DNA of 64,000 nucleotides from Pseudovibrio ascidiaceicola. Lineage in GTDB: Bacteria > Pseudomonadota > Alphaproteobacteria > Rhizobiales > Stappiaceae. Below the pieces are notes generated by a model. That model had not been told where the DNA came from. It did not search any database and saw only the letters and a program-made list of their open reading frames with translations. Position 1 is the stretch's first letter; the number at the start of each line of letters is the position of its first letter. The position numbers and the translations under genes were made by a program. The stretch is taken from positions 1 through 64,000 of the forward strand of contig NZ_FOSK01000002.1 in NCBI RefSeq assembly GCF_900114245.1, given 5' to 3'. Positions 1,827 to 19,610 of this stretch are shown piece by piece.

Positions 1827-2254
1827 AGCGGCCTCAAAATGACGACAAATAATCAGGCCAAACTATGAGTGCATTAATCATGCAAAACAATTTAAAGTTT
1901 AATCAATTATATATATGCAACCTATTTTAGATTTTTCGATCTCCTCATACGTTAATTTCACTCAGCAACGCATCTATTAGATGAAAAAATGAAGAAGAAC
2001 AAAAATACAAGAACCCTTAGCTTTGATTAGCGTCAAAATCTAATTAAGTTTAGTTTTTTATATCATCATATTTTAGTTGAAAACTTGCACTCAACATTTC
2101 TTTCGAACCGTATAGGACCGCTGAGCGACTTAGAATGCTCTCAATGACATTGCTTAGGCCGTTGCAAGCAAACCTTTTATCTGGTGTCACCAGAGAGTTT
2201 CTGCTTAGTGCCGTGTTTGAGGCATGTTGTTGAGACTGTAATCGTATGCTGGAT
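1827..2254. other. AT-rich intergenic region, no gene seen
   Basis: About 430 bases separate the start of the FG-GAP/VCBS gene from the 3' end of the LysR gene. It should hold the promoter of the adhesin gene. It is clearly AT-rich near 1880-2060. An 81-codon minus-strand frame at 2050-2295 overlaps the LysR gene end, has no family resemblance and is judged not to be a gene. Confidence 0.5.
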
Positions 2255-3199
2255 CTAGATTTGGTAGTTCTTAACCAGCAACATAAAGCGTTCAACCAAA
2301 GGATTGAGGGTCTTCTTTCGCCAGAAGATGGTCATTTTCATCTCTGGCAATGGGGGCGTTGTGGGAATTGAGCAAACATCCGGTGTAAGCTCCATAGTAC
2401 CAGGAACAATCATGCAAGCACCTGCACCAGACGCAGCTAGGCCGATTTGACCGCTAACGTTTGTCACTGCTGAGGGATAGATCTGCGGGATAGCTCCTAA
2501 TTCCTTTAGAGCATCAATCTGAAAGGAATATTGGCGCGGGTGCGCACTTACCGGCAGCAGAATTAATGGAAGATCAGAGACATTCTGAGCGGTTAGCACC
2601 GATTTGTTGGCCATTTTGTGAGACTTCGCCAAGCATAACTCATAGTGGGCAGACCAAAAAACCAACTGTTTCAGGTTCTTGGGAAGCTCCAGAGGGGTCG
2701 GTTGTGACATGAATGCGATGTCAATCTTGTTCGATGCCAACGCTTCACACATCTCGACTGCTGTTAACTCAATCAGATGGGTGAAGATGCTCGGATAAGC
2801 CACCCTAAAACCTCTAAGCAACTCATCAATCTGTCTGAAATTCTGGTAGCTTGGAATACCAACTCGCAACTCCTGCTGTTGCGCCTTGCTGTGAATGTTC
2901 TCCAGCTCTTCGCTACAATCGTTGAGCAGAGATTGAAACAATCGCAGGCATTGCTGACCCTCAGCTGTAACTTGAAAGCCTGTCGTTGATCTGGAAAGCA
3001 GGGACAGTTCGAGATTTTCCTCCAATTGAGAGATCTGCTGGCTAAGGGTTGGCTGGCTTACTCCTAAACTCTCTGCTGCCTTGCGAAAGTTCATAAAATG
3101 GCAAAGCTCGCAGAAATAGAGAAGCTGGCGAAAACTGAGGCGCCTCAGCATCGCTGTCCATTTTGGCTGTATCTGGTTCAAGGGCCGAGAGTCCTGCAT
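2255..3199 (-). CDS. LysR-family transcriptional regulator, divergent from SAH-hydrolase-like gene
   Basis: This is a 314-residue LysR-type regulator. The N-terminal winged helix-turn-helix (about residues 18-80) has the usual pattern of FRKAAESLGVSQPTLSQQI followed by LELSLLSRS. The C-terminal two-thirds is a periplasmic-binding-like effector domain. The start at 3199 adds 16 residues before a second Met (3151) that begins the conserved MLRRLSFRQ segment; neither has a strong ribosome-binding site, so the start is uncertain. It is transcribed away from the SAH-hydrolase-like gene, and the shared promoter holds a 19-bp palindrome typical of LysR operators. The inferred role is control of that neighbour; the effector is unknown. 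Confidence 0.88.
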   Translation of the reverse strand: MQDSRPLNQIQPKWTAMLRRLSFRQLLYFCELCHFMNFRKAAESLGVSQPTLSQQISQLEENLELSLLSRSTTGFQVTAEGQQCLRLFQSLLNDCSEELENIHSKAQQQELRVGIPSYQNFRQIDELLRGFRVAYPSIFTHLIELTAVEMCEALASNKIDIAFMSQPTPLELPKNLKQLVFWSAHYELCLAKSHKMANKSVLTAQNVSDLPLILLPVSAHPRQYSFQIDALKELGAIPQIYPSAVTNVSGQIGLAASGAGACMIVPGTMELTPDVCSIPTTPPLPEMKMTIFWRKKTLNPLVERFMLLVKNYQI

Positions 3200-3237
3200 G
3201 ATGCACTCAGTCTATTAAGATCTATCAGCGCAGTAGG

Positions 3238-3256
3238 TCATAGAAAATTTCTATGA
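3238..3256. promoter_or_regulatory. 19-bp perfect palindrome, probable LysR operator
   Basis: Two 9-base arms, TCATAGAAA and TTTCTATGA, are separated by one base in the divergent promoter region of the LysR gene and the SAH-hydrolase-like gene. LysR proteins typically bind interrupted palindromes of the T-N11-A type in such positions (family knowledge). That this LysR binds it is inference. Confidence 0.6.
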
Positions 3257-3356
3257 GCAATAACTTACTCATATTATTCGTCGTTTCCCAAACAGTTTAG
3301 CCTTCTCACTATGAAAACCAATACGAGCATTGTTGTCGGAATAATGGGAGGCATCA

Positions 3357-4589
3357 TTGCCATATAATACAAGCACAGTACTTGCAGAATGTTCATACGA
3401 CATAGCGGATGTAAGCCTGGCACCAGAAGGCACCAAACGCATTCAATGGGCGAAGGCTCATATGCCTATTATGAACAGTATCATTGAACGCATGGAGCAG
3501 CAGAAACCTTTCAAAGACCTGACGATTGGTGTGTGCCTTCATGTTGAGGCGAAAACCGGTGTCTGGATGGAGGCACTTACCAAAGGTGGTGCAACGGTTG
3601 CCCTCACAGGCTCTCCCGGATCAACTCAGGATGAGACAGCAGCGGCCTTGGTGAAAGATTTCGGGGTTCATGTTTTTTCTCAAAGGAATGAGACCTTTGA
3701 AGATCATATGGAGTACTGCAAGCAAATCCTGCGCTTTAAACCAGACATCATTGCAGACAATGGCGCGGATTTGCATGAGCTAATTTTTACCGGTAACGAA
3801 TTTGCAGATCTGCAATCAACTCTTCTGGGGGCAACAGAGGAAACAACGACAGGTGCAAACCGGCTCCGCGAGGACTTCAACTCCGACAAGTGGAGCACGC
3901 TCATCATCAACGACACCCAATCTAAGCGGATCATCGAAAACCGTTTTGGCGTGGGATCCTCTGTCGTTGACGGCATTATGCGGGCCACCAATGTGATGCT
4001 GCACGGTAAGAAAATTGTCGTTATTGGCTATGGATACTGTGGAGCAGGTACAGCACAGCGACTTCGAGGCATGGGCGCCCATGTCACGGTTGTTGAGAGT
4101 AACTCTCTTGTTCGTCTCGAAGCACATATGGAAGGCTTCTACACTTCCAAATTAGAAGCAGCTCTGCCTGATGCTGATATAGTTGTGACCGTAACAGGCC
4201 GTGATAACGTGCTTCGCAAGGAACATTTCCAGCTGATGCGCGATAAAACCATTATTGCGAATGCAGGACATTTCCAGCGTGAGATTGATGTACGAGCTCT
4301 GGCTGAGCTTAGCTCTTCTCACCAGCAAATCCGGCCACACATCACCGCCTATCAGATCCCAGATGGTGACAAGGAGCTGTTCCTTTTGTCGGACGCCAAT
4401 CTGGTTAATCTATCAGCGGGTGATGGCAATCCAATCGAGATTATGGATCTGGGGCTGGCGTTGCAGACGCTGAGCATTGAGCGCATTGCAACAGCTGCTT
4501 CAACGTTGAGCAACACCCCACAACCAGTACCCTACGACATTGAGATGAAAGTAGCTGAACTGGCCTGCAAGTACTGGATCAACCATTAA
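3357..4589 (+). CDS. S-adenosylhomocysteine hydrolase family protein, divergent paralogue
   Basis: This 410-residue protein belongs to the adenosylhomocysteinase family (SAH to adenosine and homocysteine, NAD-dependent). Visible family signatures are GATEETTTG, the NDTQSK segment with the conserved Lys, VVDGIMRATN, the NAD-binding GYGYCGAG, NAGHFQREID, and NLSAGDGNP near the C-terminus. It is shorter than typical bacterial AhcY (about 430-470 residues), lacks the usual C-terminal KPDHYRY-like tail, and the GYGDVGKG loop is altered, so it may act on a related substrate rather than in the main methyl cycle. The start is a TTG at 3357, chosen because GGGAGG lies 6 bases upstream and no in-frame ATG has a comparable site. 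A LysR gene diverges from it. Confidence 0.8.
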   Translation: MPYNTSTVLAECSYDIADVSLAPEGTKRIQWAKAHMPIMNSIIERMEQQKPFKDLTIGVCLHVEAKTGVWMEALTKGGATVALTGSPGSTQDETAAALVKDFGVHVFSQRNETFEDHMEYCKQILRFKPDIIADNGADLHELIFTGNEFADLQSTLLGATEETTTGANRLREDFNSDKWSTLIINDTQSKRIIENRFGVGSSVVDGIMRATNVMLHGKKIVVIGYGYCGAGTAQRLRGMGAHVTVVESNSLVRLEAHMEGFYTSKLEAALPDADIVVTVTGRDNVLRKEHFQLMRDKTIIANAGHFQREIDVRALAELSSSHQQIRPHITAYQIPDGDKELFLLSDANLVNLSAGDGNPIEIMDLGLALQTLSIERIATAASTLSNTPQPVPYDIEMKVAELACKYWINH

Positions 4590-4959
4590 ATCCAGCAACT
4601 TAGCTCAATAATATCATGAAGAAATTAGGAATTTGAACATACTGCATATGCTTAGCTTGCTTGGTATTGGGTGCATCATTTCCATGAACCCAAAAGCATC
4701 AAGCTCAGGTAATCCTCGGTGCAATTCTCATTCAGTTTCTCCGTGGATGGCATTACCTTTCCATTTGGCGGTCGAGGTTTTGCCATGATGGGTACGAATG
4801 AGAATTACCAGAACGCAATCTCGTTTACGGCCGCTACTAGCTATTTGCATTGTGCTAGAGTTCAGGTTCTGGAGAAAACCAAACTCACGTACCAATTGTG
4901 TTGACTGGTATCTGCACCAACCTACATTAGACGCCTCACAAACAGAGTATCAGCTAACC
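4590..4959. other. Intergenic region before LysR gene
   Basis: About 370 bases with no recognisable gene. Short frames here lack ribosome-binding sites and family features. A weak hairpin (TTGGGT/ACCCAA arms near 4665-4692) is present; there is no clear terminator. Confidence 0.4.
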
Positions 4960-5886
4960 ATGCCTCAAATCCCCTCCCTAAAAAGCATACAGGCATTTGA
5001 AGTGGTTGTGCGGCGTTTGAGTTTTAAGGATGCGGCGGAGGAGCTACATGTAACGCCGACGGCAATCAGTCATCAGATTAAGAACCTTGAAGAGCATTTT
5101 GGGGTGGCGTTGTTCCATCGTCTGCCGCGGTCGCTTCGCTTAACGAAAGAAGGTGAGATCTACGCGCCTTTTATCCGGGACGCTTTTGAGAAGTTGAATG
5201 CCGGGTCTGCGGCTCTCTTGAATGATGACCTTGATGGCACACTGACGATAACCACCACCAACTCCTTTGCCTCAAACTGGCTGGTACCGCGGCTCAAGCG
5301 ATTTTCAGAGCAGAACCCTTTGATTGCTGTGAAAGTTCTGGGCTCCGATGAGTTACTTACCTTTCCAAAAGACAACATCGACTTGGCAATCCGATATGGC
5401 GAGCCCGATCATGTTGACTTACACGCTGCCTGGATATTGGATGATTATGTTTCAGCTGTGTGTGCTCCAGATTATCTGCCTACTTCGCCAGAGCTATCAA
5501 TGCTTCAGAAAGGCCAGTTGATACAATATGAGTGGACAGGATTTTCAGACAAAGACCCGAGCTGGGAAGGGTGGTTCCAAAATCAAGGTTTTGGGTTTGC
5601 TCCGCAAAAACCGGTCAATACGTTTTCCGAAGAGCATATGTGCATCTCAGCGGCCAGAGATGGGCATGGGGTTGCTTTGGTTAGTCTGATCGCAGCTGCA
5701 CGCGACCTTGAAGAAAAACGCTTGGTTGCGCCATTCGATTATTCTGTCAAAAACAAAAGCTATTACTTGGTTTGTCCCAAGTCTTCAGCCAACAGGGCAA
5801 AAGTCCAGGTGTTTCAGGATTGGCTGCTGGATGAAGCAGATTTGTTTCGCGACAGCGTAATTGGTCAGCGTTTCTTTGAGAAGTAA
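4960..5886 (+). CDS. LysR-family regulator, GcvA-like
   Basis: This 308-residue LysR regulator starts MPQIPSLKSIQAFE, with the helix-turn-helix phrase FKDAAEELHVTPTAISHQIKNLEEHFG that is common in the GcvA-like subgroup. The frame is open upstream to 4798, but homologous proteins begin at this point and the upstream residues look non-coding, so the ATG at 4960 is chosen. The effector-binding domain includes NWLVPRL and DLAIRYG, typical of the group. It lies upstream of and codirectional with two NTF2-like genes and an azoreductase gene (gap 134 bases), so it may regulate them; this is inference. Confidence 0.88.
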   Translation: MPQIPSLKSIQAFEVVVRRLSFKDAAEELHVTPTAISHQIKNLEEHFGVALFHRLPRSLRLTKEGEIYAPFIRDAFEKLNAGSAALLNDDLDGTLTITTTNSFASNWLVPRLKRFSEQNPLIAVKVLGSDELLTFPKDNIDLAIRYGEPDHVDLHAAWILDDYVSAVCAPDYLPTSPELSMLQKGQLIQYEWTGFSDKDPSWEGWFQNQGFGFAPQKPVNTFSEEHMCISAARDGHGVALVSLIAAARDLEEKRLVAPFDYSVKNKSYYLVCPKSSANRAKVQVFQDWLLDEADLFRDSVIGQRFFEK

Positions 5887-6020
5887 ATGATGCCCTGAAT
5901 CTCATTCAGCCGTCAGCTGAAATCTCTGATGTTGTTCTCTGTTTTGTACTCAAGGTAGGACTGTGCCTGACCTTCTGATCTCTATGAGAGAGATACAGAG
6001 CCAATGGCAGAGGCAGTCCC

Positions 6021-6461
6021 ATGCGGTCGCAAGATCAAATTCAAAAGCTAATCAATCAATACAGTTTTACTCTGGATTCCGGAGATCTGAAAGGGTTTGC
6101 CGCCTTGTTTAAAGAGGCAAGTTGGCACTTTGACAGCTCGGATCCAGTTCATGGCAGCAAGGACCTGTATGATCAAGTTCTAACGCGAGTAATCTTGTAC
6201 AAAGACGGAACACCCCGCACCCGTCATATGTCCACGAACTTGGACATACGAGTTGATGAAGAAGCTGGGAAAGCTGAGTGCCAACGATATGTCGTCGTTG
6301 TTCAGCAAGCCGATGACTTTCCATTGCAGGTTATCTACTCAGGTGAGTATTTTGATGAGTTTATCCGCCAGCAAAACGGAGATTGGCGATACTCTAAGCT
6401 CACAATCCGCAAGCCGCTCTTTGGCGATTTAAGCCGCCATCTTCTGTCTCGGTTGAGTTAG
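6021..6461 (+). CDS. NTF2-like (SnoaL-type) protein
   Basis: This 146-residue protein has the cone-shaped NTF2/SnoaL-like pattern: an N-terminal helix (IQKLINQYSFTLDSGDLKGFAALF), then D/H-rich strands (GTPRTRHMSTN) and C-terminal strands. Family members include small isomerases, hydratases and non-catalytic ligand binders, and the exact reaction cannot be told. The next gene encodes a close paralogue only 13 bases downstream, and an FMN azoreductase follows, suggesting one transcript for aromatic or quinone-type chemistry (inference). Confidence 0.75.
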   Translation: MRSQDQIQKLINQYSFTLDSGDLKGFAALFKEASWHFDSSDPVHGSKDLYDQVLTRVILYKDGTPRTRHMSTNLDIRVDEEAGKAECQRYVVVVQQADDFPLQVIYSGEYFDEFIRQQNGDWRYSKLTIRKPLFGDLSRHLLSRLS

Positions 6462-6474
6462 GAGGATGACAGCT

Positions 6475-6915
6475 ATGCAGTACAGTGATCATGATCAGAT
6501 CCTGGAACTTCTCAATCGCTATAGCTTCACTTTGGATGGTGGAGACCTGGAAGGGTTTGCCGAACTCTTCACTGATGGCGAATGGGGCATGGAGGGCAGC
6601 ATGCATCAAGGAAAAGAGGCCTTATTAGCAGGTGTCCTATCTACTGTTTTACTCCAGCCGGACGGGACACCTAAGACCCGTCACATCTCTACCAACATCC
6701 AGCTTGAGATTGATATGGAGGCCTGCATTGCAACCTGCAAGCGCTATGGCCTTGTAATACAGCAGACAGCTGATCTTCCCTTAAAGCCAATCTTCTCGGC
6801 GGATTACTTCGATACTTTTTCTAAAGTGGATGATGTCTGGTGCTTCAAGAAATGCGAGCTCAAGCGCGCATTTGTCGGAGACCTTTCGCACTTGTTCTCG
6901 CAGCAACTCGCATAA
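6475..6915 (+). CDS. NTF2-like (SnoaL-type) protein, paralogue of upstream gene
   Basis: This 146-residue NTF2-like protein matches its upstream neighbour along its length (both share YSFTLD.GDL.GFA.LF and DGTP.TRH.STN), so the pair arose by tandem duplication. Two ATGs are possible. The one at 6466 directly abuts the GGAGG at 6461-6465, whereas the one at 6475 has 9 bases of spacing and aligns with the start of the paralogue, so 6475 is chosen. Two similar chains could form a heterodimer, since NTF2-like proteins are commonly dimers (family knowledge). Confidence 0.75.
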   Translation: MQYSDHDQILELLNRYSFTLDGGDLEGFAELFTDGEWGMEGSMHQGKEALLAGVLSTVLLQPDGTPKTRHISTNIQLEIDMEACIATCKRYGLVIQQTADLPLKPIFSADYFDTFSKVDDVWCFKKCELKRAFVGDLSHLFSQQLA

Positions 6916-6965
6916 CTTCCGGTGCACTCACGATCCAGAAAAGCAAACACAAGGAGACGTCTCTG

Positions 6966-7634
6966 ATGACAACGCTTTTACAAATTGACGCCAGTATTCG
7001 GGGAAGCGAGAGCATTGTTCCAGAGTACAACTCCATCTCCCGCAGCATCTCAGCAACCTTCATGAAGGAATGGCAACAGCACAAACCAAATGACACAGTG
7101 ATTTGCCGCGATGTTGGTATGCATCCACCAGATCATATAACTCAGGATTGGATCGCAGCGGTTTTCACTGCCCCAGAAAGCCGGAGTGACACACAAAATG
7201 CACTGCTTGCTCAGTCAGACAGTCTAATTGCTGAATTGGAGCAAGCCGACATCATAGTCCTGTCAACGCCGATGTACAATTATGGCATGCCAGCTGGTCT
7301 AAAGGCTTGGTTCGATCAGGTGATCCGTATCAACAAGACCTTCAGCTTCGATCTTAAACGTGGTGATTATCCGCTGGAACCAATTTTATTTGGCAAGAAG
7401 TTGGTTGCGATCACCTCTTCAGGAGAGTTCGGATTTGGGCCTGGTGGCATTCGTGAAAGCTGGAACCATCTCATGCCGCATATCAGAACCCTGAAAGGGT
7501 ATCTTGGGGTTGACGAACTGTTTGAAGTCACAGCTGAATACCAAGAATTTAATGACAAACGACATAAGACCTCCGTGCAAGATGCGCATGCAAAAGCGAG
7601 AGATTTGGCCGCAAAGCTTGCTTTACTGGACTAG
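6966..7634 (+). CDS. azoR: FMN-dependent NADH-azoreductase / quinone reductase
   Basis: This 222-residue flavodoxin-fold protein has the azoreductase hallmarks: an N-terminal phosphate-binding strand-loop (LLQIDASIRG.ES), the TPMYNYGMPAGLKAWFDQV segment that holds FMN, and INKTFSF. Family enzymes reduce quinones or azo dyes with NAD(P)H by two-electron transfer in the cytoplasm. The ATG at 6966 is preceded by AAGGAG with 9 bases of spacing and overlaps nothing, so it is preferred to an upstream GTG at 6840 inside the previous gene. It is last in the apparent operon with the two NTF2-like genes and is followed by a hairpin terminator. Confidence 0.85.
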   Translation: MTTLLQIDASIRGSESIVPEYNSISRSISATFMKEWQQHKPNDTVICRDVGMHPPDHITQDWIAAVFTAPESRSDTQNALLAQSDSLIAELEQADIIVLSTPMYNYGMPAGLKAWFDQVIRINKTFSFDLKRGDYPLEPILFGKKLVAITSSGEFGFGPGGIRESWNHLMPHIRTLKGYLGVDELFEVTAEYQEFNDKRHKTSVQDAHAKARDLAAKLALLD

Positions 7635-9107: not shown

Positions 9108-12100
9108 ATGAAAAAACGGATTCTTCAACGTCAGCTGAGGTTCTGGGAAGGCCAAAAATCTTCCGTTGTCACCCTAGATTCTTTGAAAAGTGATAACCGA
9201 TCACTGATCGTGCTTGGTGAAGCTGGTATGGGCAAATCTATGCTGCTCAAAAGCTTGGAATCTAAAAACAATATTGCTTATTGCACTGCCCGAGCATTTC
9301 TTAGAGCTCCTGATCCAAAACGCTTGATTGGTGATGCTAGTACGTTGGCGATTGATGCACTTGATGAAGTCCCAGCCTTGCACGATGGAGATGTGATCGA
9401 CCGAGTTTTGGCCCGGTTAGTTGAACTGGGGTTACCGCAGTTCATTTTATCCTGCCGCGTCGCAGATTGGCGGAGCGCCACAGCCTTAGAAAGCATTCTC
9501 GAAGAATACGGTAGCGTACCTCTTGAGTTGCATCTGGAGCCTTTCTCAAGAGAAGACGCAGTCACTTTTTTATCAGATAAATTAAGCGACGAGGAGGCCG
9601 AGCTCACAGTCTGCCGTTTGGAGGAACTTGGGCTGAGCGGCTTATGGTGCAATCCTCAGACATTGGGCATGGTGAAAACAGTCGCCCAGCAAGGGAACCT
9701 GCCAAACTCTAAAGGAGATTTATTTTCTGAAGCAACCAAAATGCTGCGAAAAGAGCACCGTCAGGTAAAAGCTGATACTATTCTGGCAAACCTATCGGAA
9801 ACGGAGGTTCTCGATGCTGCGGGAGCTGCTTTTGCCACATTAATTCTTACAGGTAAGGAAGCATTATCCCGCGATGTTGCCCCAAATGAGTTCGATATTC
9901 CTGTCGCAGAAATTTCTGTCTTGCCGGGCGCAGGCCAGATAAGAGATATTTTGGGCTCCCGCTTATTTGAAGCCCTTTCACCCAAGCGCTTTACATACAC
10001 GCACCGTGCTGTTGCAGAGTTTCTGGGAGCCCGTTGGCTTGCAAAACAAGCAGATACTCCGCGTAAGAAACGAAGACTACTTCAGCTGTTTCACTGTCTG
10101 GCTTTAGTTCCAGCAAGCCTTCGAGGCCTTCATGCATGGTTGGCTTATCATTCAGGCGAACTGGCTAATCAAATCATTGCAGCAGATCCCATAGGCGTTT
10201 TGGAGTATGCGGATGCAAATTGGCTAGATGAATCAAAAAGCAGAGCACTACTAACTGCATTGCACAAACTTTCAGAAGAAAATCCTCGTTTTAAAGGCTG
10301 GTCAAAATATCGGGCTGATGGCTTGGTGCAACCAGGGTTGTTGCCCGAGATATGCAAGATCATCACAGATAGGTCGCATGAGTTTGGTTTCCGCTTGCTT
10401 ATCTTGGAAGTTCTAAAGAGTTCTGACTTGGTACCAAAACTACAGAATAAGCTTTTGGGCTTATTGCGCGACGCAAACGAGGTGTATGCAATAAGGAGTG
10501 AAGCGGGAGATCGGTTAACAGAGCTCAATACTTCTATCGAATGGACCAGTATTGTTGCTGGATTGTTTAAAGAAGGTGGCGAAGACTGTGTGAGGCTTGG
10601 CGGTGAGCTGATGGACAGTGTTGGTTTCGAGCGCTTCAACGACACTGAAATCCTTGCTCTCGTTAAAGCTCACTATGTCCTTCCCGAGGACGGGGTCAAC
10701 AATCTATTCAGTTTAGGCCGTAACCTCCCAGTTGACCGTATTCCAGCACTCCTTGACGGTATAGCGGGTATGCTAGCTGAAACTGATAGAAGTGAAGATC
10801 TTAAAGCAACGGGCGAACTTGCATTCGATGAACAAGGTGGCATTGAAGAGCTCACAGATTTAGTTTTTGAGTTAATTGCCAGATACCTTTTAAAGAAAGC
10901 GCCAACAGCTGAGAGACTTTGGCGTTGGCTGATGCCCTTTGACCCTGATCGTGGATTGCAGGACGCATCGAAAAAAGCCATTGCAGAAATTCTCCGCACC
11001 ACGGATGATCTTCGCCGCGCCGTGCAACACTACGCGCTCTTGGAACTGAAAAGCGATCAGAACATCTGGCAGCGTGCTTGGCGAATGAGGGAATTCGGGC
11101 TTTATCCCAATGAAGACGATGTTCTTTGGCTGCTTAAGCAAATTAGGCATGGAGACCCGCGTTGGCGCGATTTGGTTCAGTTATCTCACCATGGCACAGA
11201 GGAAGGAAAGCCAATAAGAGATTTTGCTCTTCGGTTTGCTGGCGATAATGCGGAGGATAAAGCATGGCTTGATGAACTTGAGAGCCCCAAAGTCCCGCAA
11301 TGGCAAATTGAACAAGAGCAGCGGAAGCAAACAGAAGCAGCTGAACGTGAAGAGACCCGCAAAAAAACACGCTCTGAATATGCAGATCGTATTGAAGAGG
11401 TGCGCAAGGGTGACTATGGCGGTATCGTTAATCCAGCGAAAGCCTATCTGAACTTATATAGAGATATTGGAGATGAAACCTCAAACGGGCCAGCGCGGGT
11501 TGAACAGTGGCTTGGGGCCGATCTACGCGAAGCAGTACTCGAAGGTTTTGAAACATTTCTGACCAAAGAAGAACCAAAACCAACTGCGACGGACATTGCT
11601 AGCAGTTATGCTGAAGGGCGAAGATGGGATGCAGCTTACATCATCGTTGCAGCTCTTGCTGAACGCTCACGCACTGGACGCGGGTTCGAGGGGCTTTCTG
11701 ATGAGCGTTTAATGGCCGGCTACATTGAGCTTGAACAGCATCCAATTGCTGAAAAAGCTGGAATCTCAGGCCTTAATAGCAGGCTAGAGAATGAGTTACG
11801 CGCAATAAAGAGTTGGGAAGAGACACAACGGTTATTGATAGAGCCCAAACTCAAAGCCGGGCATCAACACGTCACTGGCCTTTATCACCTTATGCGTAGT
11901 GACGAAGATGTTGACTTGGCTGGTGAGCTTGGCTGCGAATGGCTTGAGAACATCTCAAATCTCTCAGAAGAAGCAGAAGCTGAGATTTTAGGCAGGCTCA
12001 TAACGGTCCCAGCTGGCATTATGTTGGTCAAAAAACTAATGTCAGACCGTTTGCAAACGGCGATCAGTAACGAACTTCGTCGCACATGGGATGCTGCTGG

Positions 12101-13076
12101 CCTAATTGTAGATTTCGATGTAACACGAGAGAGGCTTGAGCGAAACCTCCCGATAGACCCAAAGTTACTATGGGAACTTCGTAAGCGGACTGGTCAATCA
12201 AACTTGTCATCACATCTTACTTCTGTGGGCTTGGAGCTACTAGCATGGACGTTTGCGACATTCAGAGCTGTTTTCCCGAAAACTGATTGGCCTCGGGGCA
12301 TGACGCATGGAAATGAAAATCCATGGGATGCTTCAGATTACCTGATTTCTTTGATTAATCGTCTCGGAAACGATGTGTCTCCTGAAGCGACTGAGTTGCT
12401 GATAGAGCTCAAAGACTCCGTAGAGGATGGCTATACTGAATTCTTGCGTAATGTGCTTGCAGAGCAAAAGCGCAAACGAGTGGAGTCCGAATGGACTGCT
12501 CCTGACCTACCTACTGTTGTGAGCACTGTCACCGATAAAGCTCCTACAAAGGCTGAGCAGCTTCAAGAGGTAATGCTTGAAGAGCTGGTTGATGTGCAAA
12601 GAGCTGTTCATGGCAGCAGTTGCGACTGGTACAAAGATTTCTTTAATGGCAAGGAGCCCAAACAAGAGGATGAGTGTAGAGATACCATCCTGAAGATGTT
12701 TGACGGCAAACTTCCATTTGAAATTCTTGCGTCTCCGGAAGGCCATTTGGGAGATGATAAACGTTGCGATATTGAGTGTACACTTGCGAATTTAATGGTC
12801 CCAATAGAGCTTAAGGGACAATGGCACGAAGACCTCTGGACTGCAGCTGACCGGCAACTTGATCGCTTATACTCCAACGACAGGCGCGCAGGATACGGAA
12901 TTTATGTCGTTCTGTGGTTTGGCGAGGATACTTCCAAAAAACTCCGTAAGCCGCCTAAAGGCATCGAAGTGCCGAAAACTGCTGAGGGACTTCGAAAAGC
13001 ACTCATTGCGAACAGTGCTTCGGCACATGATGGACGGACTGCGATAGTTGTTCTCAATTTAACACGGCCATCATAG
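9108..13076 (+). CDS. NACHT/STAND NTPase with C-terminal PD-(D/E)XK nuclease-like domain (putative defence protein)
   Basis: This protein has 1322 residues. The NTPase domain is at the very N-terminus: Walker A GEAGMGKS (37-44), Walker B LAIDALDE (80-87), a sensor-like FILSCR (112-117), PFSREDAV (about 145-152), NPQTLGMV and THRAVAEFLGA, which together are typical of NACHT-type STAND NTPases. A very long helical middle (about 330-1180) resembles a repeat sensor region and contains a charged, coiled-coil-prone stretch rich in E, K and R near residues 730-770. Near the C-terminus, D1221, E1234 and K1236 (context CDIE...PIELK) followed by WTAADRQLDRLY and GIYVVLWFG form a PD-(D/E)XK-type core. 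STAND NTPases with nuclease effectors are known anti-phage proteins (family knowledge); that role here is inferred. It shares one base with the next gene. The ATG has only a weak ribosome-binding site. Confidence 0.8.
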   Translation: MKKRILQRQLRFWEGQKSSVVTLDSLKSDNRSLIVLGEAGMGKSMLLKSLESKNNIAYCTARAFLRAPDPKRLIGDASTLAIDALDEVPALHDGDVIDRVLARLVELGLPQFILSCRVADWRSATALESILEEYGSVPLELHLEPFSREDAVTFLSDKLSDEEAELTVCRLEELGLSGLWCNPQTLGMVKTVAQQGNLPNSKGDLFSEATKMLRKEHRQVKADTILANLSETEVLDAAGAAFATLILTGKEALSRDVAPNEFDIPVAEISVLPGAGQIRDILGSRLFEALSPKRFTYTHRAVAEFLGARWLAKQADTPRKKRRLLQLFHCLALVPASLRGLHAWLAYHSGELANQIIAADPIGVLEYADANWLDESKSRALLTALHKLSEENPRFKGWSKYRADGLVQPGLLPEICKIITDRSHEFGFRLLILEVLKSSDLVPKLQNKLLGLLRDANEVYAIRSEAGDRLTELNTSIEWTSIVAGLFKEGGEDCVRLGGELMDSVGFERFNDTEILALVKAHYVLPEDGVNNLFSLGRNLPVDRIPALLDGIAGMLAETDRSEDLKATGELAFDEQGGIEELTDLVFELIARYLLKKAPTAERLWRWLMPFDPDRGLQDASKKAIAEILRTTDDLRRAVQHYALLELKSDQNIWQRAWRMREFGLYPNEDDVLWLLKQIRHGDPRWRDLVQLSHHGTEEGKPIRDFALRFAGDNAEDKAWLDELESPKVPQWQIEQEQRKQTEAAEREETRKKTRSEYADRIEEVRKGDYGGIVNPAKAYLNLYRDIGDETSNGPARVEQWLGADLREAVLEGFETFLTKEEPKPTATDIASSYAEGRRWDAAYIIVAALAERSRTGRGFEGLSDERLMAGYIELEQHPIAEKAGISGLNSRLENELRAIKSWEETQRLLIEPKLKAGHQHVTGLYHLMRSDEDVDLAGELGCEWLENISNLSEEAEAEILGRLITVPAGIMLVKKLMSDRLQTAISNELRRTWDAAGLIVDFDVTRERLERNLPIDPKLLWELRKRTGQSNLSSHLTSVGLELLAWTFATFRAVFPKTDWPRGMTHGNENPWDASDYLISLINRLGNDVSPEATELLIELKDSVEDGYTEFLRNVLAEQKRKRVESEWTAPDLPTVVSTVTDKAPTKAEQLQEVMLEELVDVQRAVHGSSCDWYKDFFNGKEPKQEDECRDTILKMFDGKLPFEILASPEGHLGDDKRCDIECTLANLMVPIELKGQWHEDLWTAADRQLDRLYSNDRRAGYGIYVVLWFGEDTSKKLRKPPKGIEVPKTAEGLRKALIANSASAHDGRTAIVVLNLTRPS

Positions 13077-14284
13077 TGGAACGTGTTTACGCTCTCCAAC
13101 AACTTGACGAGGCTGTTACGCGGAGCAAAGTTACGGTGGTTCAGGGGTTGCCTCGTGTTGGCCGTACATCCATTCTTGCTGAATGGAGACGTCAACGCCC
13201 TGATACCAAGCTTTGCCGTGAGATCGCAGACATCCTGTCAGGAACCGGCGTCTTTATTTTAGACCATGTAGATGCAAGATCGATTGACGCTATTAGCGCT
13301 AAGGTGCGCGAAGCCGACGAAGGTCGGCTACATGGACACTTAGTTGTTGCTCCAATTGACTTTGTCACTTCCGTGGGTTTGCGAAATGCATTGCCTGGCC
13401 TCGTGACAACGATTGATGTTAACCCTTTGCAGATTAACGAGACCACCGGTGAAGCAAGTGATTCATCTCTTTCAGCTGGACCGATAGATACCCCTCCCGA
13501 AGCATCAGCTCCAGTTAATGATCAAACGCCCGCACCTCATCAACATTGGCTTCGTGGCGGCTTCCCTGAAAGCCTTGAAGCGGAGACTGATGAACTTAGC
13601 ATGAAATGGCGCGATGACATGTTGGGTATCCTCTTAGATCGTGATTACTCCTGTCTTGGGATTGCAAGAGGTCTCCCGTTAGATCAAATACTCCTTTGGC
13701 TAGCGAATAAAAATGGGTCTGAACTCAACGAGGATGGGTGTCCTCTTGTTACAAAACAGGAGTTTCGTGATGCGATTAGAGTATTTGTTCGGTTGGGTCT
13801 GGTGCGGCGCCTGCCTAGTTACCCTGCTCGCAGCAAGTTGAGCTTAACCCGAAATCAGAAGGTCTTTTTAAGGGATACTGGTATCCTACACACTCTGTTG
13901 GGTATCGAGACTTGGGAGCAATTGGATTTACAACCTGATACCGTTAAAGGGGCTAGCTTTGAGAGTTATGCAATTGAAGCTCTAATCCATGCTGCAAATG
14001 GTCGTTGTGAAGCTCAATTCTATCGCCACAAGAATGCCGAGATTGATCTTGTGCTTAACTTTCCAGCACAACGAAATCGGCTAGTTGCAATCGAGTGTAA
14101 AGTAAATTCTAGTCGCTCCTTGAAATCAGGTTTCTATACAGCGTGCGAAGCAATCAAAGTAGCTGATCAAGACCGGTTTATGGTTCATTCTGATGAAAGA
14201 CCCTCCTATCACGGAGATGTCCCCAAACTAGACTTAAGAACAGCGATCAAACAAATCTCCAAGATCGCGCAAGAAAGGCAATAA
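13076..14284 (+). CDS. AAA_14/DUF4143-type protein with degenerate P-loop and PD-(D/E)XK core
   Basis: This 402-residue protein resembles the COG1373 group (AAA_14 ATPase plus DUF4143). The expected P-loop reads GLPRVGRTS (24-32), with Arg in place of the essential Lys, and the Walker B region reads FILDHVDA (60-67) without the usual acidic pair, so ATP hydrolysis is probably lost. The family phrase WLRGGFPESL is present. At the C-terminus GASFESYAIEAL, then D324, E340 and K342 (AEIDLVL...AIECK), make an intact PD-(D/E)XK nuclease-like core. The GTG start shares its first base with the TAG stop of the NACHT gene, so translation is coupled and the two products probably act together. A short hairpin follows the stop codon. 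Confidence 0.78.
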   Translation: MERVYALQQLDEAVTRSKVTVVQGLPRVGRTSILAEWRRQRPDTKLCREIADILSGTGVFILDHVDARSIDAISAKVREADEGRLHGHLVVAPIDFVTSVGLRNALPGLVTTIDVNPLQINETTGEASDSSLSAGPIDTPPEASAPVNDQTPAPHQHWLRGGFPESLEAETDELSMKWRDDMLGILLDRDYSCLGIARGLPLDQILLWLANKNGSELNEDGCPLVTKQEFRDAIRVFVRLGLVRRLPSYPARSKLSLTRNQKVFLRDTGILHTLLGIETWEQLDLQPDTVKGASFESYAIEALIHAANGRCEAQFYRHKNAEIDLVLNFPAQRNRLVAIECKVNSSRSLKSGFYTACEAIKVADQDRFMVHSDERPSYHGDVPKLDLRTAIKQISKIAQERQ

Positions 14285-14303: not shown

Positions 14304-14333
14304 AGCGTCTTCAACCCATGATGGAACCGCCCG

Positions 14334-14401
14334 AATGTCTGCTTCTGGCCCAAGTTTCTAGGCACTTCTGGCATGTAACAGCTATCTAACAGCGGACATT
14401 G
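14334..14401. repeat. Inverted repeat AATGTCTGCT / AGCGGACATT
   Basis: Two 10-base arms with one mismatch (14334-14343 and 14391-14400) bracket 47 bases just downstream of the cassette. The same GCGGACATTG word occurs at 8890-8899 and, in inverted form as CCAATGTCCG, at 17333-17342. Confidence 0.4.
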
Positions 14402-14470: not shown

Positions 14471-15497
14471 CTAGTTTATCAACCCAAAGATCCAGCCCGC
14501 AGTCATGGAACCTGTTACGGCGAGGGTGAGGTAAAGGAGGAACGGTTTGATCTTCAGGACTGGGAAGATTGCCATTGCACCCCAGATGCTGACCACTCCG
14601 CCGGACACTAGAAATGCCATTGCTGCGCCAGAGGACATGCCGTGGTCCATGAGCGAGCGGGTTAACGGCAAGGCGGCGTAGCCATCCAGATAAGCCGGAG
14701 CACCAACAAACACTGCCAGTGGAATGGCCCACCAAACATCGCCGCCGACATATGCGGTCAGGGCTTCAGGTTCCAGCAGGCTTTGAAGCACGAACTCAGC
14801 GGCAAAGGCCGGGATCAGGCAGATCAGTACAAGTCGGGTGATTGCGATGAACTCCTCGCGAAAATGACGGCGATGTGCTGGTGAGCGCCAAATGGTCCAT
14901 TGAACCTTTCCGGATTGACAGGTCTGGCCGAGGTTTCCGACGAGGGTGTTCTCACGCAGTACTGATTGAGCCCAGGGGCGTTTGCTGGCGAATGCGGTTA
15001 TGGCCCCACCAAATAGGCCCAGTCCCATAGCGGCAATGGTTTTGCCAATGGCAAAGCTTATGCCCAGGGTGGCAGCCGTTGTGGCAAGCATTGCTGGGTC
15101 TGTGACAGGTGATGACAACCAGAAGGCCATAACCGGAGCGAGTGGCACACCGGCGGCCAGTAGACCGGCCATGAGCGGCCATGAGCGGCAAAACAGTGAC
15201 ACCACACACGGGTGTGACCGCGCCTATCAATGAGGCGGCCATAATGGTTTTCAGCAGATTGCCGTTAAAGACCTCAGCAATGTGGCGACTAGCACCGCTG
15301 GCGCTCACCCATGCGGCGATGAGTATGCCAGGAATAACCAGAGGTGAGACCTTAAGCAGGCTGATTGCAACAAATACGAGGGTTTCCTTGGCTTGGATAG
15401 GAAAAGCAATCGCGAGTGCTACCATGAGCATGAGTGCGATGGAGATCAGAATTTTCGTCTTTGAGATTGTGAGAGCGAGGGCGCTTTCGCTTGCCAT
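14471..15497 (-). pseudogene. Permease (YraQ/DUF318-type), frameshifted by a 10-bp duplication
   Basis: Two overlapping minus-strand frames encode consecutive parts of one polytopic membrane protein. The first part starts at the ATG at 15497 (AAGGA 6 bases upstream) and runs through FVAISLLKVSPLVIPGILIAAWV and GAVTPVCGVTVLPLMA. The sequence then continues in another frame as PLMAGLLAAGVPLAPVMAFWLSS to the stop at 14471. The junction is an exact tandem duplication of GGCCATGAGC (15167-15176 and 15177-15186); removing one copy restores a single frame of about 340 residues. The CxVT..P pattern after the first helices matches the predicted permease family often linked to metal or metalloid export. 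A LysR gene diverges from it. The intact frame looks well conserved, so the break is recent or reversible. Confidence 0.8.
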
Positions 15498-15512
15498 GGA
15501 GCATCCTTTCTT

Positions 15513-15536
15513 AAGTTGCCGGCAAGGTAGCAACTT
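15513..15536. promoter_or_regulatory. Inverted repeat AAGTTGC-N10-GCAACTT
   Basis: Perfect 7-bp arms lie 16-39 bases upstream of the permease start codon, so it is either in the 5' leader or an operator. It sits beside the larger 15541-15570 repeat. Confidence 0.4.
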
Positions 15537-17053: not shown

Positions 17054-17514
17054 GCAAATCGTTGTGCCACGCTATTTTGCAGAACCTATCCATCATCTGT
17101 GCAGATTTTCAGCATTTTGCGCAGGTGAGCTTAAGGCGCATGTTGTCGGGAATGAAACTGCTGCAGAAGGGTTGCTGCAAAAGCTGCAAAATGGCTTGCA
17201 ATCTGAGGAGGTAAAAGCACAAAGCACTGTCTATCTAACCTGCAAATGGTCAGTTGAGCAATTCTGGTTCGTGAACTTGTTTATTTTAGAAGCCTTCGGC
17301 TGAGGATGTCTCAACCTCAGCTAGAACCACTCCAATGTCCGGTAATGGCCCCTCTGCTACTACATCAAAGCGTTTAATCCATCTCTTAAGCTTCTTCATA
17401 ACTCCAAAGCATGACACTCCATATAAACCAGTAAGTTAGAAGATTCACTTTCGTTTCGCTTGACCCATTTAAATAAAATGGTACTCTCGACCCAATTCAA
17501 GAAGTGAGTCGAGC
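17054..17514. other. Intergenic region upstream of the island helix-turn-helix genes
   Basis: About 460 bases. An 83-codon plus-strand frame (17052-17303) has no family features and is probably not a gene. A 7-bp hairpin (GCTGAGG / CCTCAGC) lies at 17300-17322, and CCAATGTCCG at 17333-17342 is an inverted copy of the word at 8891-8900. Confidence 0.4.
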
Positions 17515-18006
17515 ATGACTGGGAAGAGTGACACTTACAGCCGTACATATACGGCGTCCGAAGTTGCCAAGATCGTTGGGATGAATATCGAGACGTTGCG
17601 GGTCTGGAGGCGGCGGAAGCAATTGGTGCTTGAGGGCGAGCGCCAAGGCTGGACCCGATATACCTTTAATGATCTGATGGCCGTTGCCACCTACCACAAC
17701 ATGGTACGCTCTCATTGCACAAATACGATTGCAGAGCTGATTGCCGGGACTGTCTCACAGCAGCTCGCCAACAAATGGTCTGGTATTCTTGGCACAGAAA
17801 GTAGTGTTTTCTGCCTTTGCAACAATGCAATGGATGAGGAAAATATTCAGATAGAGATGCATCTCGGACTGGAAGAGCTTCTGGAGGCGATCACTCAGAT
17901 TATGCGAAGCTCAAAACGTCAGCCTGCCTATCATATTGTCGATTGTGGCGCTTTGTTTTTGAAAGTGCTGGTGTCTTGCACAAAGGTTCGTGAGGAGAGC
18001 GAGTAA
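17515..18006 (+). CDS. MerR-like helix-turn-helix protein of an integrated element
   Basis: This 163-residue protein has an N-terminal MerR/excisionase-type winged helix: YTASEVAKIVGMNIETLRVWRRR, then GWTRYTFNDLMAVA. The C-terminal part (about 75-163) is not recognised; it contains several Cys residues (FCLCNN, VDCGALF, VLVSC). It is followed by a second small helix-turn-helix gene and a tyrosine recombinase gene next to tRNA-Phe, so a role as element regulator or recombination directionality factor is likely (inference). Confidence 0.6.
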   Translation: MTGKSDTYSRTYTASEVAKIVGMNIETLRVWRRRKQLVLEGERQGWTRYTFNDLMAVATYHNMVRSHCTNTIAELIAGTVSQQLANKWSGILGTESSVFCLCNNAMDEENIQIEMHLGLEELLEAITQIMRSSKRQPAYHIVDCGALFLKVLVSCTKVREESE

Positions 18007-18085
18007 TCGCTTTGGCTCATTAAATCACAGGCCCATGCTATCGGCATCAAAACTTCTATAGCCTGAAGATCGAGAGGGGATCGAT

Positions 18086-18325
18086 ATGGCGAGAGCGCAG
18101 TTGAACTTGAGTATCCAGCCGTATCGCATGCTGAAGAGAGCTGATGCGGCTTCCTATTGCGGACTAAGTGCAACCAGCTTCCTGGCCAATTGCCCGGTTC
18201 CCGCTGTTCTTCTTCCCGGAGGGCGCAAGGTCTGGGACGTCAAGGATCTGGATCGCTGGATTGAAGGCTTAAAGGAAGACAGCCGTCCATCGGATGATGA
18301 TCTCCTCAATCAGCTGGGAGCCTGA
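18086..18325 (+). CDS. Small excisionase/AlpA-like helix-turn-helix protein
   Basis: This 79-residue protein has MLKRADAASYCGLSATSFLANC, then GGRKVWDVKDLDRWIEGL, the usual layout of AlpA/excisionase-type DNA-binding proteins encoded beside integrases. Its stop codon is one base before the recombinase start, so the two are co-transcribed and translationally linked. It probably directs excision or regulates the recombinase. Confidence 0.65.
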   Translation: MARAQLNLSIQPYRMLKRADAASYCGLSATSFLANCPVPAVLLPGGRKVWDVKDLDRWIEGLKEDSRPSDDDLLNQLGA

Positions 18326-18326
18326 T

Positions 18327-19610
18327 ATGACGATAATCCGGGTCAAAGGCTTTAAGATCTTCAATGACCAGCATGGCAAGCTGCGGTGTTATCATCGCAA
18401 GACTGGTGAGCCGATCAATCTGGAAAAAGCGCCAATTGGCAGTGCTGCCTTTCTGGCGGAATGCGAGCGACTGACAAGCTTGATGTCAATGGCTGATACC
18501 AGCAGGCCGGGCACGCTCGGCAATCTGATTGACAAGTATCGCGCCAGCTCTGCCTTTCTTGAGTTGGCTGAGCGCACCAAGTCGGACTACCAGAAGGTCT
18601 TTGATTATCTGGCGCCAATCAACAACACACCCCTCTCCCGCTTTACCTCACCCTTCATAGTCAAACTCAGAGATAAAGCAGAGGAACAGCGTAAGCGGCG
18701 CTTTGCTAACTATGTAAAACAAGTGCTCTCTGTTTTGTTTTCTTGGGGCAAAGAACGTGGGTTCGTCAAAGAAAACCCTGCTCTTGGGGTTAAATCCATT
18801 CGCAAACCTAAGAACGCTCCAATCGCCAACAGGCCCTGGACGGATGACGAGCGCAGGATCGTTTTAAAACACGCCCCTGCTCAGATGGTCCCTGCCCTTA
18901 CCTTGATGATGTATACGGGACTTGGTCCGCAAGACGCGCTTACACTTGCCAAGCAACAATACCAAAATGGTTTCATCTCAACCCGGCGAGCCAAAACAGG
19001 GGCCCCAGTCTTTTGGCCTGTCATCGCACCTTTGAAAGCAGCTCTTGATGAAGCGCCAGATCACGAAGCGCCAACGCTTTGCGCAAACTCCAGAGGGCAA
19101 TCATGGACTGTTTCGGGGTTCAGAGCATCATGGCGCAAACTACGCATCCAATTAGAAGACAAGAGCCTGATTGAGCCGGGCCTTACTCTTTATGGTCTGC
19201 GGCATACGGTGGCGACTATTTTACGGGAGATTGGGCTGAACGACAGAGACCTTGCCGCCGCACTGGGACATGAGACAGAAGCGATGGCACGGCTTTATGC
19301 CAAGGGAGCTGATTTGCGCAAAAGCATGTCGGATATTGCTGTCCGATTTGAGAAGGAAATCACTTTGCGCGGGGAAGAGTTCAGCAAGCGGTTGGAGCAA
19401 AAGTGTCAAACCATGCCGAAAAAAGTGTCAAACCTTGAGAAAGCTGAGCGAATGCTCGATTTATTATCTAGTAATTTCAAGGAGATAAGTGGTGCCCGGA
19501 GGCGGATTCGAACCACCGACACGCGGATTTTCAATCCGCTGCTCTACCAACTGAGCTATCCGGGCATTTCGCGTTGGGCAGTGTGCCCCGCTGAGGTGAG
19601 GGTCTTATAG
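18327..19610 (+). CDS. Tyrosine recombinase (integrase) of a tRNA-Phe island
   Basis: This protein has 427 residues, with the start at 18327 after GGGAG with 7-base spacing. A SAM-like core-binding region (about 65-150, AERTKSDYQKVFDYL to VLSVLFSWGKERGFVKENPA) is followed by the catalytic domain: LMMYTGLGPQDALTL, GLTLYGLRHTVATILRE, AALGHETEAMARLYAKGAD. The second Arg, His and nucleophile Tyr (ARLY) are in place. The usual first Arg of TGxR is Gly here, though a related Hyphomicrobiales subgroup may share this variant. The reading frame runs through tRNA-Phe on the other strand (GARRRIRTTDTRIFNPLLYQLSYPG is antisense tRNA), so the native C-terminus was probably altered at integration. It catalyses site-specific integration and excision. 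Confidence 0.82.
   Translation: MTIIRVKGFKIFNDQHGKLRCYHRKTGEPINLEKAPIGSAAFLAECERLTSLMSMADTSRPGTLGNLIDKYRASSAFLELAERTKSDYQKVFDYLAPINNTPLSRFTSPFIVKLRDKAEEQRKRRFANYVKQVLSVLFSWGKERGFVKENPALGVKSIRKPKNAPIANRPWTDDERRIVLKHAPAQMVPALTLMMYTGLGPQDALTLAKQQYQNGFISTRRAKTGAPVFWPVIAPLKAALDEAPDHEAPTLCANSRGQSWTVSGFRASWRKLRIQLEDKSLIEPGLTLYGLRHTVATILREIGLNDRDLAAALGHETEAMARLYAKGADLRKSMSDIAVRFEKEITLRGEEFSKRLEQKCQTMPKKVSNLEKAERMLDLLSSNFKEISGARRRIRTTDTRIFNPLLYQLSYPGISRWAVCPAEVRVL
19490..19565 (-). tRNA. tRNA-Phe (GAA), integration site
   Basis: A 76-base cloverleaf with acceptor GCCCGGA/TCCGGGC, discriminator A and encoded CCA. The anticodon loop TTGAAAA gives GAA at 19530-19532 (plus-strand ttc). The 3' end faces the recombinase gene, the typical arrangement when an element has inserted into the tRNA 3' end; the other attachment copy should lie to the left and was not found by eye. 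Confidence 0.95.

Follow-up and report, generated by a model that had tools for sequence, protein, structure and literature searches.

A NACHT antiphage protein of the EruA family and its recurrent DUF4143 neighbour: a probable two-component variant of the Eru system in Pseudovibrio ascidiaceicola

Positions 1–64,000 of the forward strand of contig NZ_FOSK01000002.1 from Pseudovibrio ascidiaceicola (assembly GCF_900114245.1), hereafter the window, carry two genes joined by a single shared base: gene 1 encodes a large NACHT protein of the EruA family and gene 2 a smaller DUF4143 protein (Table 1). A preliminary description, made from the sequence alone, had presented this pair as an undescribed two-protein defence system; the open reading frames (ORFs), their coordinates and the shared stop/start base at 13076 are borne out by the sequence. 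Both genes have a single match apiece in their own genome.

Table 1. Coordinates in the window of the paired genes, their motifs and the neighbouring integrase
Feature	Residues	Coordinates	Strand	Details
Gene 1, EruA-family NACHT/STAND protein		9108..13076	+	ATG start, 1322 aa; NF058535 match
Walker A (P-loop), NACHT module	37-44	9216..9239	+	G40, G42, K43 in 109/111 rows, 2 gaps
Walker B region	83-87 (D83, D86, E87)	9354..9368	+	kept in 110/111 rows, 1 gap
Predicted PD-(D/E)XK-type core, protein 1	1187-1270	12666..12917	+	E1187, E1211, D1221, E1234, K1236, Q1250 invariant in alignment A1 (31 rows)
One-base overlap		13076..13076	+	TAG stop 13074-13076, GTG start 13076-13078; from the sequence
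Gene 2, DUF4143 partner		13076..14284	+	GTG start, 402 aa; Pfam DUF4143 match
Degenerate P-loop GLPRVGRT (K to R)	24-31	13145..13168	+	alignments A2, A4
Predicted PD-(D/E)XK-type core, partner	288-386	13937..14233	+	E296, E322, D324, E340 invariant, K342 at least 90%, 25 rows
Phage-type integrase overlapping tRNA-Phe		18294..19610	+	Pfam Phage_integrase 40.2 bits; tRNA-Phe 19490-19565

Protein 1 matches the NCBIfam model NF058535 (EruA, NACHT domain-containing antiphage protein) nearly end to end, with 1218.9 bits against a curated cut-off of 1000 (residues 12–1318 on model positions 5–1317 of 1318). By this profile match it is a member of the named antiphage family EruA and not of an unnamed one. 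The word ‘undescribed’ therefore falls for protein 1, a match to a named system having been put forward at the outset as grounds for giving up the claim, and a wholly new system is ruled out as an interpretation of the locus. The Walker A and B motifs are retained in every row but for gaps, which places the N-terminal module among the NACHT/STAND nucleoside triphosphatases (NTPases). The Pfam NACHT model itself scores 24.0 bits on protein 1, below its gathering score of 26.7; it matches 15 of 31 relatives at E-values up to 0.01, and NACHT is part of the NCBI family name. The nearest folds in the PDB over approximately residues 143–430 are NLRC4, NLRP9 and NOD2, a fold like that of nucleotide-binding leucine-rich repeat receptors (NLRs).

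The AlphaFold model of residues 123–1322 (predicted local distance difference test, pLDDT, 88.5) contains a long, mostly helical middle, followed from model residue 1065 by the succession helix-strand-strand-strand-helix-strand with the motif residues at the expected places. PD-(D/E)XK nucleases share a core of one helix, three strands, a helix and a strand that carries D, ExK and Q. The C-terminus of protein 1 fits this pattern in the core order of the model and in near-invariant motif residues: among 111 rows, E1211 is kept in 108, D1221 in 107, E1234 in 108, K1236 in 107 (three gaps, one serine) and Q1250 in 107. Conserved motifs and model together support the domain reading of the preliminary description (NACHT, long helical middle, C-terminal PD-(D/E)XK). 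Variability within EruA peaks in residues 420–1140, as expected of a sensor, and the motifs are retained both with and without the partner gene. Sequence searches of the PDB returned one weak unrelated match for protein 1 alone and mainly P-loop proteins for the alignments.

Protein 2 scores 68.2 bits with Pfam DUF4143 (PF13635; gathering score 28.1). Querying PADLOC with both proteins, as had been suggested, gave a divided answer: protein 2 matches the candidate model PDC-S01 (E 3.4e-30 over residues 7–346; the library gives no cut-off), and no PADLOC model matches protein 1 at E up to 1. In the structure model of protein 2 (pLDDT 85.1, predicted template modelling score 0.87), the closest PDB folds to approximately residues 1–290 are PabY2304, RPP1 and CED-4, and the helix-three strands-helix-strand order runs across residues 288–371. 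E322, D324, E340 and K342 are present there, and the nuclease motif earlier read as intact is indeed so. The N-terminal module has lost the P-loop lysine and the second acid of Walker B, and no Pfam AAA model, AAA_14 (PF13173) included, matches it at E up to 1. Judged by alignment and model, protein 2 is thus a DUF4143 protein with a predicted STAND-like pseudo-NTPase module and a predicted C-terminal PD-(D/E)XK-type unit. Compared profile against profile, the alignments for EruA and for the partner showed no relation.

The AAA module had been called decayed, which is right as regards the lost P-loop lysine and Walker B acid and wrong as regards simple decay. Between the window and the same-genus genome G748, the proportions of nonsynonymous (pN) and synonymous (pS) differences in the NTPase module are 0.32 and 0.74, similar to the remainder of the protein, so that the module appears to be kept as a pseudo-NTPase; plain pseudogene decay of the partner is rejected by this purifying selection. 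In the partners of loci L033 and L130, the NTPase part is more variable than the rest (pN 0.39 vs 0.24).

We then asked how often the two genes stand together. EruA relatives were drawn from 385 class genomes, 398 phylum genomes, 151 relatives, seven of 28 plasmid records, five viral contigs and a contig collection, the last contributing the best 80 of 166 confirmed relatives among the matches listed (a single-protein search of the same collection confirmed nothing). A script examined 136 loci, 135 with an EruA-like ORF; 13 were removed (three duplicates, one without an EruA ORF, seven of HyoA type, and the fragments L120 and L159, below 250 bits). The 123 loci that remain are a non-random sample, and many of the paired ones are metagenome bins. 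A DUF4143 gene lies directly beside EruA in 54 of them, upstream in 47 and downstream in seven, and 69 have it on neither side. The script had counted 46, 7 and 70; L177 was reassigned upstream by eye, its EruA ORF having been given too early a start. Sulfitobacter delicatus (L130) has the downstream order and Thauera linaloolentis (L186) the upstream one. Most paired genes overlap at their ends or sit within a few bases of each other.

The same picture is obtained from whole genomes. Across 42 EruA genomes or records, those of HyoA type and the short fragment G508 being left out, Pfam DUF4143 gives 22 matches in 13, and eight of these genes adjoin EruA, four downstream (G000, G748, G123 and a Paracoccus plasmid) and four upstream (G065, G422, G667, G615). 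Rough arithmetic (22 genes, two slots, about 4,000 genes) predicts some 0.01 adjacent cases by chance. The EruA proteins of the window, G748 and G123 pass the NF058535 cut-off; those of the upstream-paired G422 (997 bits), G667 (981) and G065 (934) fall just under 1000, and we therefore use ‘EruA’ for the wider family. Searched in near mode against E. coli genomes, the EruA of G116 had no match.

HyoA-type loci served as controls. HyoA (NF058534) is a related large NACHT antiphage protein, with which protein 1 scores 115 bits, far below the cut-off of 1200; unlike EruA loci, HyoA-type loci have a DUF4143 ORF in 0 of 20 cases (17 genomes). This class was called from score and length (of six loci scanned, five pass the HyoA cut-off and one lies just below), and in five of the 20 loci (L078–L082) the flank is limited to about 1.5 kb. 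DUF4143 genes, found in bacteria and archaea, occur in five of 14 control genomes and in 33 of 200 phylum genomes, and so are not ubiquitous. Other same-strand ORFs close to EruA number 101; no group of them recurs in more than three loci, and the groups of three are near-identical Burkholderia genes and other-frame ORFs inside the partner gene. At a threshold of 1e-60, the upstream-partner profile A3 matches nine of the 398 phylum genomes: the three matches above 600 bits adjoin EruA, and the other six (475–556 bits) come from genomes with no listed EruA match, two of which (G397 and G628) were inspected and have no EruA within the stretch fetched. In this small sample, the upstream subfamily proper is tied to EruA and its nearest kin are untied.

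In the EruA tree (FastTree), upstream pairing falls nearly entirely in one clade of 48 rows, 41 of them paired by the script and 42 with L177. This clade spans 11 phyla by NCBI rank and many metagenome bins; the upstream-paired L144 falls outside it. The seven downstream cases lie among unpaired rows in the window’s half of the tree. One clade of the partner tree has 45 rows, 44 of them upstream partners and the last the unlinked gene of G397; the proportion is not a rate because the linked rows were found via EruA. The seven downstream partners fall in another DUF4143 subfamily together with 12 unlinked rows. A careful partner tree of 56 thinned rows agrees, with support of 100/100 and 100/99. 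Forcing upstream and downstream partners into one clade costs 232 units of log-likelihood (p 1.1e-7), and one ancestral partner that merely moved was rejected on that basis; a single origin of the downstream partners was not rejected (p 0.53; six rows, L140 left out). As upstream and downstream partners belong to different DUF4143 subfamilies, a partner of the same kind seems to have been recruited twice.

Distances in EruA and in the partner are correlated. For 40 upstream pairs r is 0.848, a value reached in 0 of 2000 permutations, and for the seven downstream pairs r is 0.897, reached in 4 of 2000. The partner is the less variable protein upstream (median distance 0.64 vs 1.28 for EruA) and the more variable one downstream (1.89 vs 1.36). 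The recurrent adjacency that had been called for as a check is thus found in other genomes and is accompanied by a correlation of distances. This conserved pairing is the new part of the finding, and on sequence grounds a link between the genes is supported.

Among the partners, the ATPase is seen at different stages of loss. The P-loop is intact in 44 of 44 upstream partners of the tree set, with AAA_14 and an intact P-loop in all three upstream partners scanned, and in 38 of 42 unlinked relatives; that of protein 2, which matches the candidate PDC-S01, is degenerate. Among the seven downstream partners, L042 and L136 have an intact P-loop, four (the window, L113, L033 and L130) carry the K-to-R change, and L140 is without the NTPase module and without the ExK lysine. 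To judge from the sequences, the partner ATPase thus seems dispensable in the downstream lineage, where switching would fall to the NACHT module of EruA. The catalytic pattern was detected in 40 of the 44 upstream rows; three of the other four keep ExK by eye and L155 is without the lysine, and the catalytic residues are retained in six of the seven downstream partners.

A PADLOC scan of 119 of 128 chosen neighbours of linked pairs, made with no control set, found mad3 in three, AriA in two, and AbiLi, DarG, Cas1 and others in one each. Individual EruA loci have features of their own. In L042, Cas1 is encoded (11614–12759, minus strand) directly upstream of EruA, whose DUF4143 partner is downstream; in L200, from Shewanella frigidimarina, a gene with the nuclease-related NERD domain lies just upstream of EruA (5810–6865) and is possibly another nuclease partner. 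Burkholderia EruA genes (L034, L035, L129) have a related gene of 488 aa upstream, the L034 copy of which contains SLFN_AlbA_2 and HATPase_c_4. An upstream DUF4143-EruA pair occupies 2027–7306 of a viral-collection contig (L211), a single TAA splits EruA into two ORFs in a Kordiimonas bin (L101/L137), and G748 holds, on contigs C6 and C8, both an Eru pair and a large gene assigned to the HyoA type from score and length.

In the window, the pair is preceded on its 5' side by a gene for an SMP-30-like protein (a weak match, below the Pfam cut-off) and followed by genes for an ArsP-type permease and a LysR regulator, then by those for a MerR-type regulator and the integrase, about 4 kb downstream. 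Of the integrase-bearing tRNA island proposed earlier, the integrase and its overlap with tRNA-Phe stand; no second copy of at least 14 bases of the tRNA-Phe stretch occurs elsewhere in the window to mark its borders. The integrase is a possible vehicle, outside the pair proper. An empty-site search in 16 same-genus genomes recovered the integrase stretch at 91–96% in G749 and G753, and the left flank only as short weak matches, in three others. The integrase stretch at about 17416–19480 also recurs, whole or in part, at 93–96% identity: twice in G753, once in G749 and on contig C35 of the window’s own genome. The permease (14471–15533, minus strand) is contained in two overlapping ORFs and looks frameshifted, since each covers a different part of the Pfam model. 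A stretch of about 41 bases just 3' of gene 2 (about 14311–14351) is a dispersed intergenic repeat. Further copies lie elsewhere in this genome, on other contigs, and in several genomes of the genus, one of them about 2.3 kb from the Eru pair of G748.

On balance, we consider it probable, if by no wide measure, that the pair makes up an Eru antiphage system in a two-component form, with the partner dedicated to EruA as its co-nuclease or regulator; the defence function is one we infer. EruA would unite an NLR-like sensor and an effector in one chain: the helical middle would sense an infection cue, the NACHT module would switch and oligomerise with ATP, and DNA would be cut by the PD-(D/E)XK-type unit at the C-terminus. 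The DUF4143 protein, presumably co-transcribed from the same overlapping operon, would bind EruA as its dedicated partner. Its STAND-like module, with the ATPase lost in the window lineage, may serve for docking, and its nuclease unit may act with, or gate, the EruA nuclease; the co-nuclease role is favoured over the gate because almost every partner retains its catalytic residues. A bolder version, which we advance tentatively and regard as unlikely, is a bacterial counterpart of paired NLRs, in which a sensor NACHT protein works through a smaller STAND-type nuclease recruited at least twice, the window-lineage partner is a pseudo-ATPase switched entirely by EruA, and the two PD-(D/E)XK-type units meet in one complex and cut both strands.

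Several observations weigh against a two-component system of this kind. The nuclease unit of EruA is predicted from motif and model rather than from a profile or fold match: no Pfam model matches the core, and the PDB fold list spans mostly residues before approximately 1020 and leaves the core uncovered. Upstream pairing sits in a clade that scores in part below the EruA cut-off. The 69 unpaired loci, with Burkholderia relatives at about 42% identity among them, indicate that EruA is not always dependent on a DUF4143 partner, and the loss of the ExK lysine in L140 (with the NTPase module) and in L155 speaks against a needed second nuclease. Known defence genes, looked for near the window pair, are not among the ten surrounding window proteins scanned with PADLOC at 1e-5.

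Lysine loss and unpaired EruA genes suggest a regulatory or optional role, for which reason we keep as the main rival a partner that is a brake, holding the EruA nuclease inactive until infection in the manner of an antitoxin or inhibitor, its own nuclease fold being a binding module. In its favour, an upstream partner precedes EruA in the operon, in most cases with overlapping ends, and the downstream lineage loses the ATPase motif (in L140 the whole module and the ExK lysine) yet stays beside EruA. Against it stand the catalytic residues, retained in nearly all partners, and the many partnerless EruA genes, which must be under some other control; we find it doubtful. That the two are separate defence genes co-travelling in islands, with no mutual action, is improbable: each occurs apart, as in the six of nine genomes with an A3-type partner and no listed EruA match, DUF4143 genes are present in the 33 phylum genomes counted above, and known defence families lie near linked pairs, but overlapping or near-touching ends, two gene orders, the tree correlation and the lack of any other close neighbour recurring in more than three loci argue for more than shared transport. 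A role outside phage defence (excluding plasmids, for example, or killing the cell under stress) would suit the EruA relatives on conjugative plasmids, one of which has a DUF4143 partner; given that the NCBI family is named as antiphage, and that STAND-nuclease architectures are found in antiphage proteins, we hold it to be very improbable.

Among known systems, NF058535 names one protein, and nothing found in the literature searched makes a DUF4143 gene part of that named system. Avs proteins likewise follow the logic of a STAND NTPase coupled to a PD-(D/E)XK effector; protein 1 scores 8.2 bits with Avs4 (NF041815; cut-off 1500) and lies outside that family. In plant paired NLRs, two STAND-type proteins are encoded side by side and the P-loop of one is degenerate. 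The arrangement is alike, and the partner module fits the RPP1 and CED-4 folds; we draw an analogy of arrangement only and claim no common descent of the pairing. The effector logic is also that of bNACHT25/32, which have the nuclease at the N-terminus (PMC12169576), whereas that of EruA would be C-terminal, behind the solenoid.

Among the papers listed from the open-licence literature we found no antiphage paper using the names EruA or HyoA, nothing joining NACHT, DUF4143 and defense, and no function for DUF4143, a domain mentioned in one paper, on Thermus Argonaute; Eru, Hyo and DUF4143 are absent from the main text of the DefensePredictor paper (PMC13092281). The EruA-DUF4143 pairing, of which we met no description in the same literature, would be new against the known EruA family and may be in print elsewhere, as subscription papers and most preprints lie outside the literature searched.

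That such pairs recur in distant bacteria suggests a two-part anti-virus machine. For DUF4143 proteins, being so tightly and repeatedly linked to an antiphage protein with a name, the NACHT protein EruA, offers a first testable role. In bacteria, the link also provides a case of an NLR-like protein to which a nuclease partner was apparently added on two occasions. Because the partner ATPase is found intact, degenerate and missing, natural variants allow one to test how far each domain is needed.

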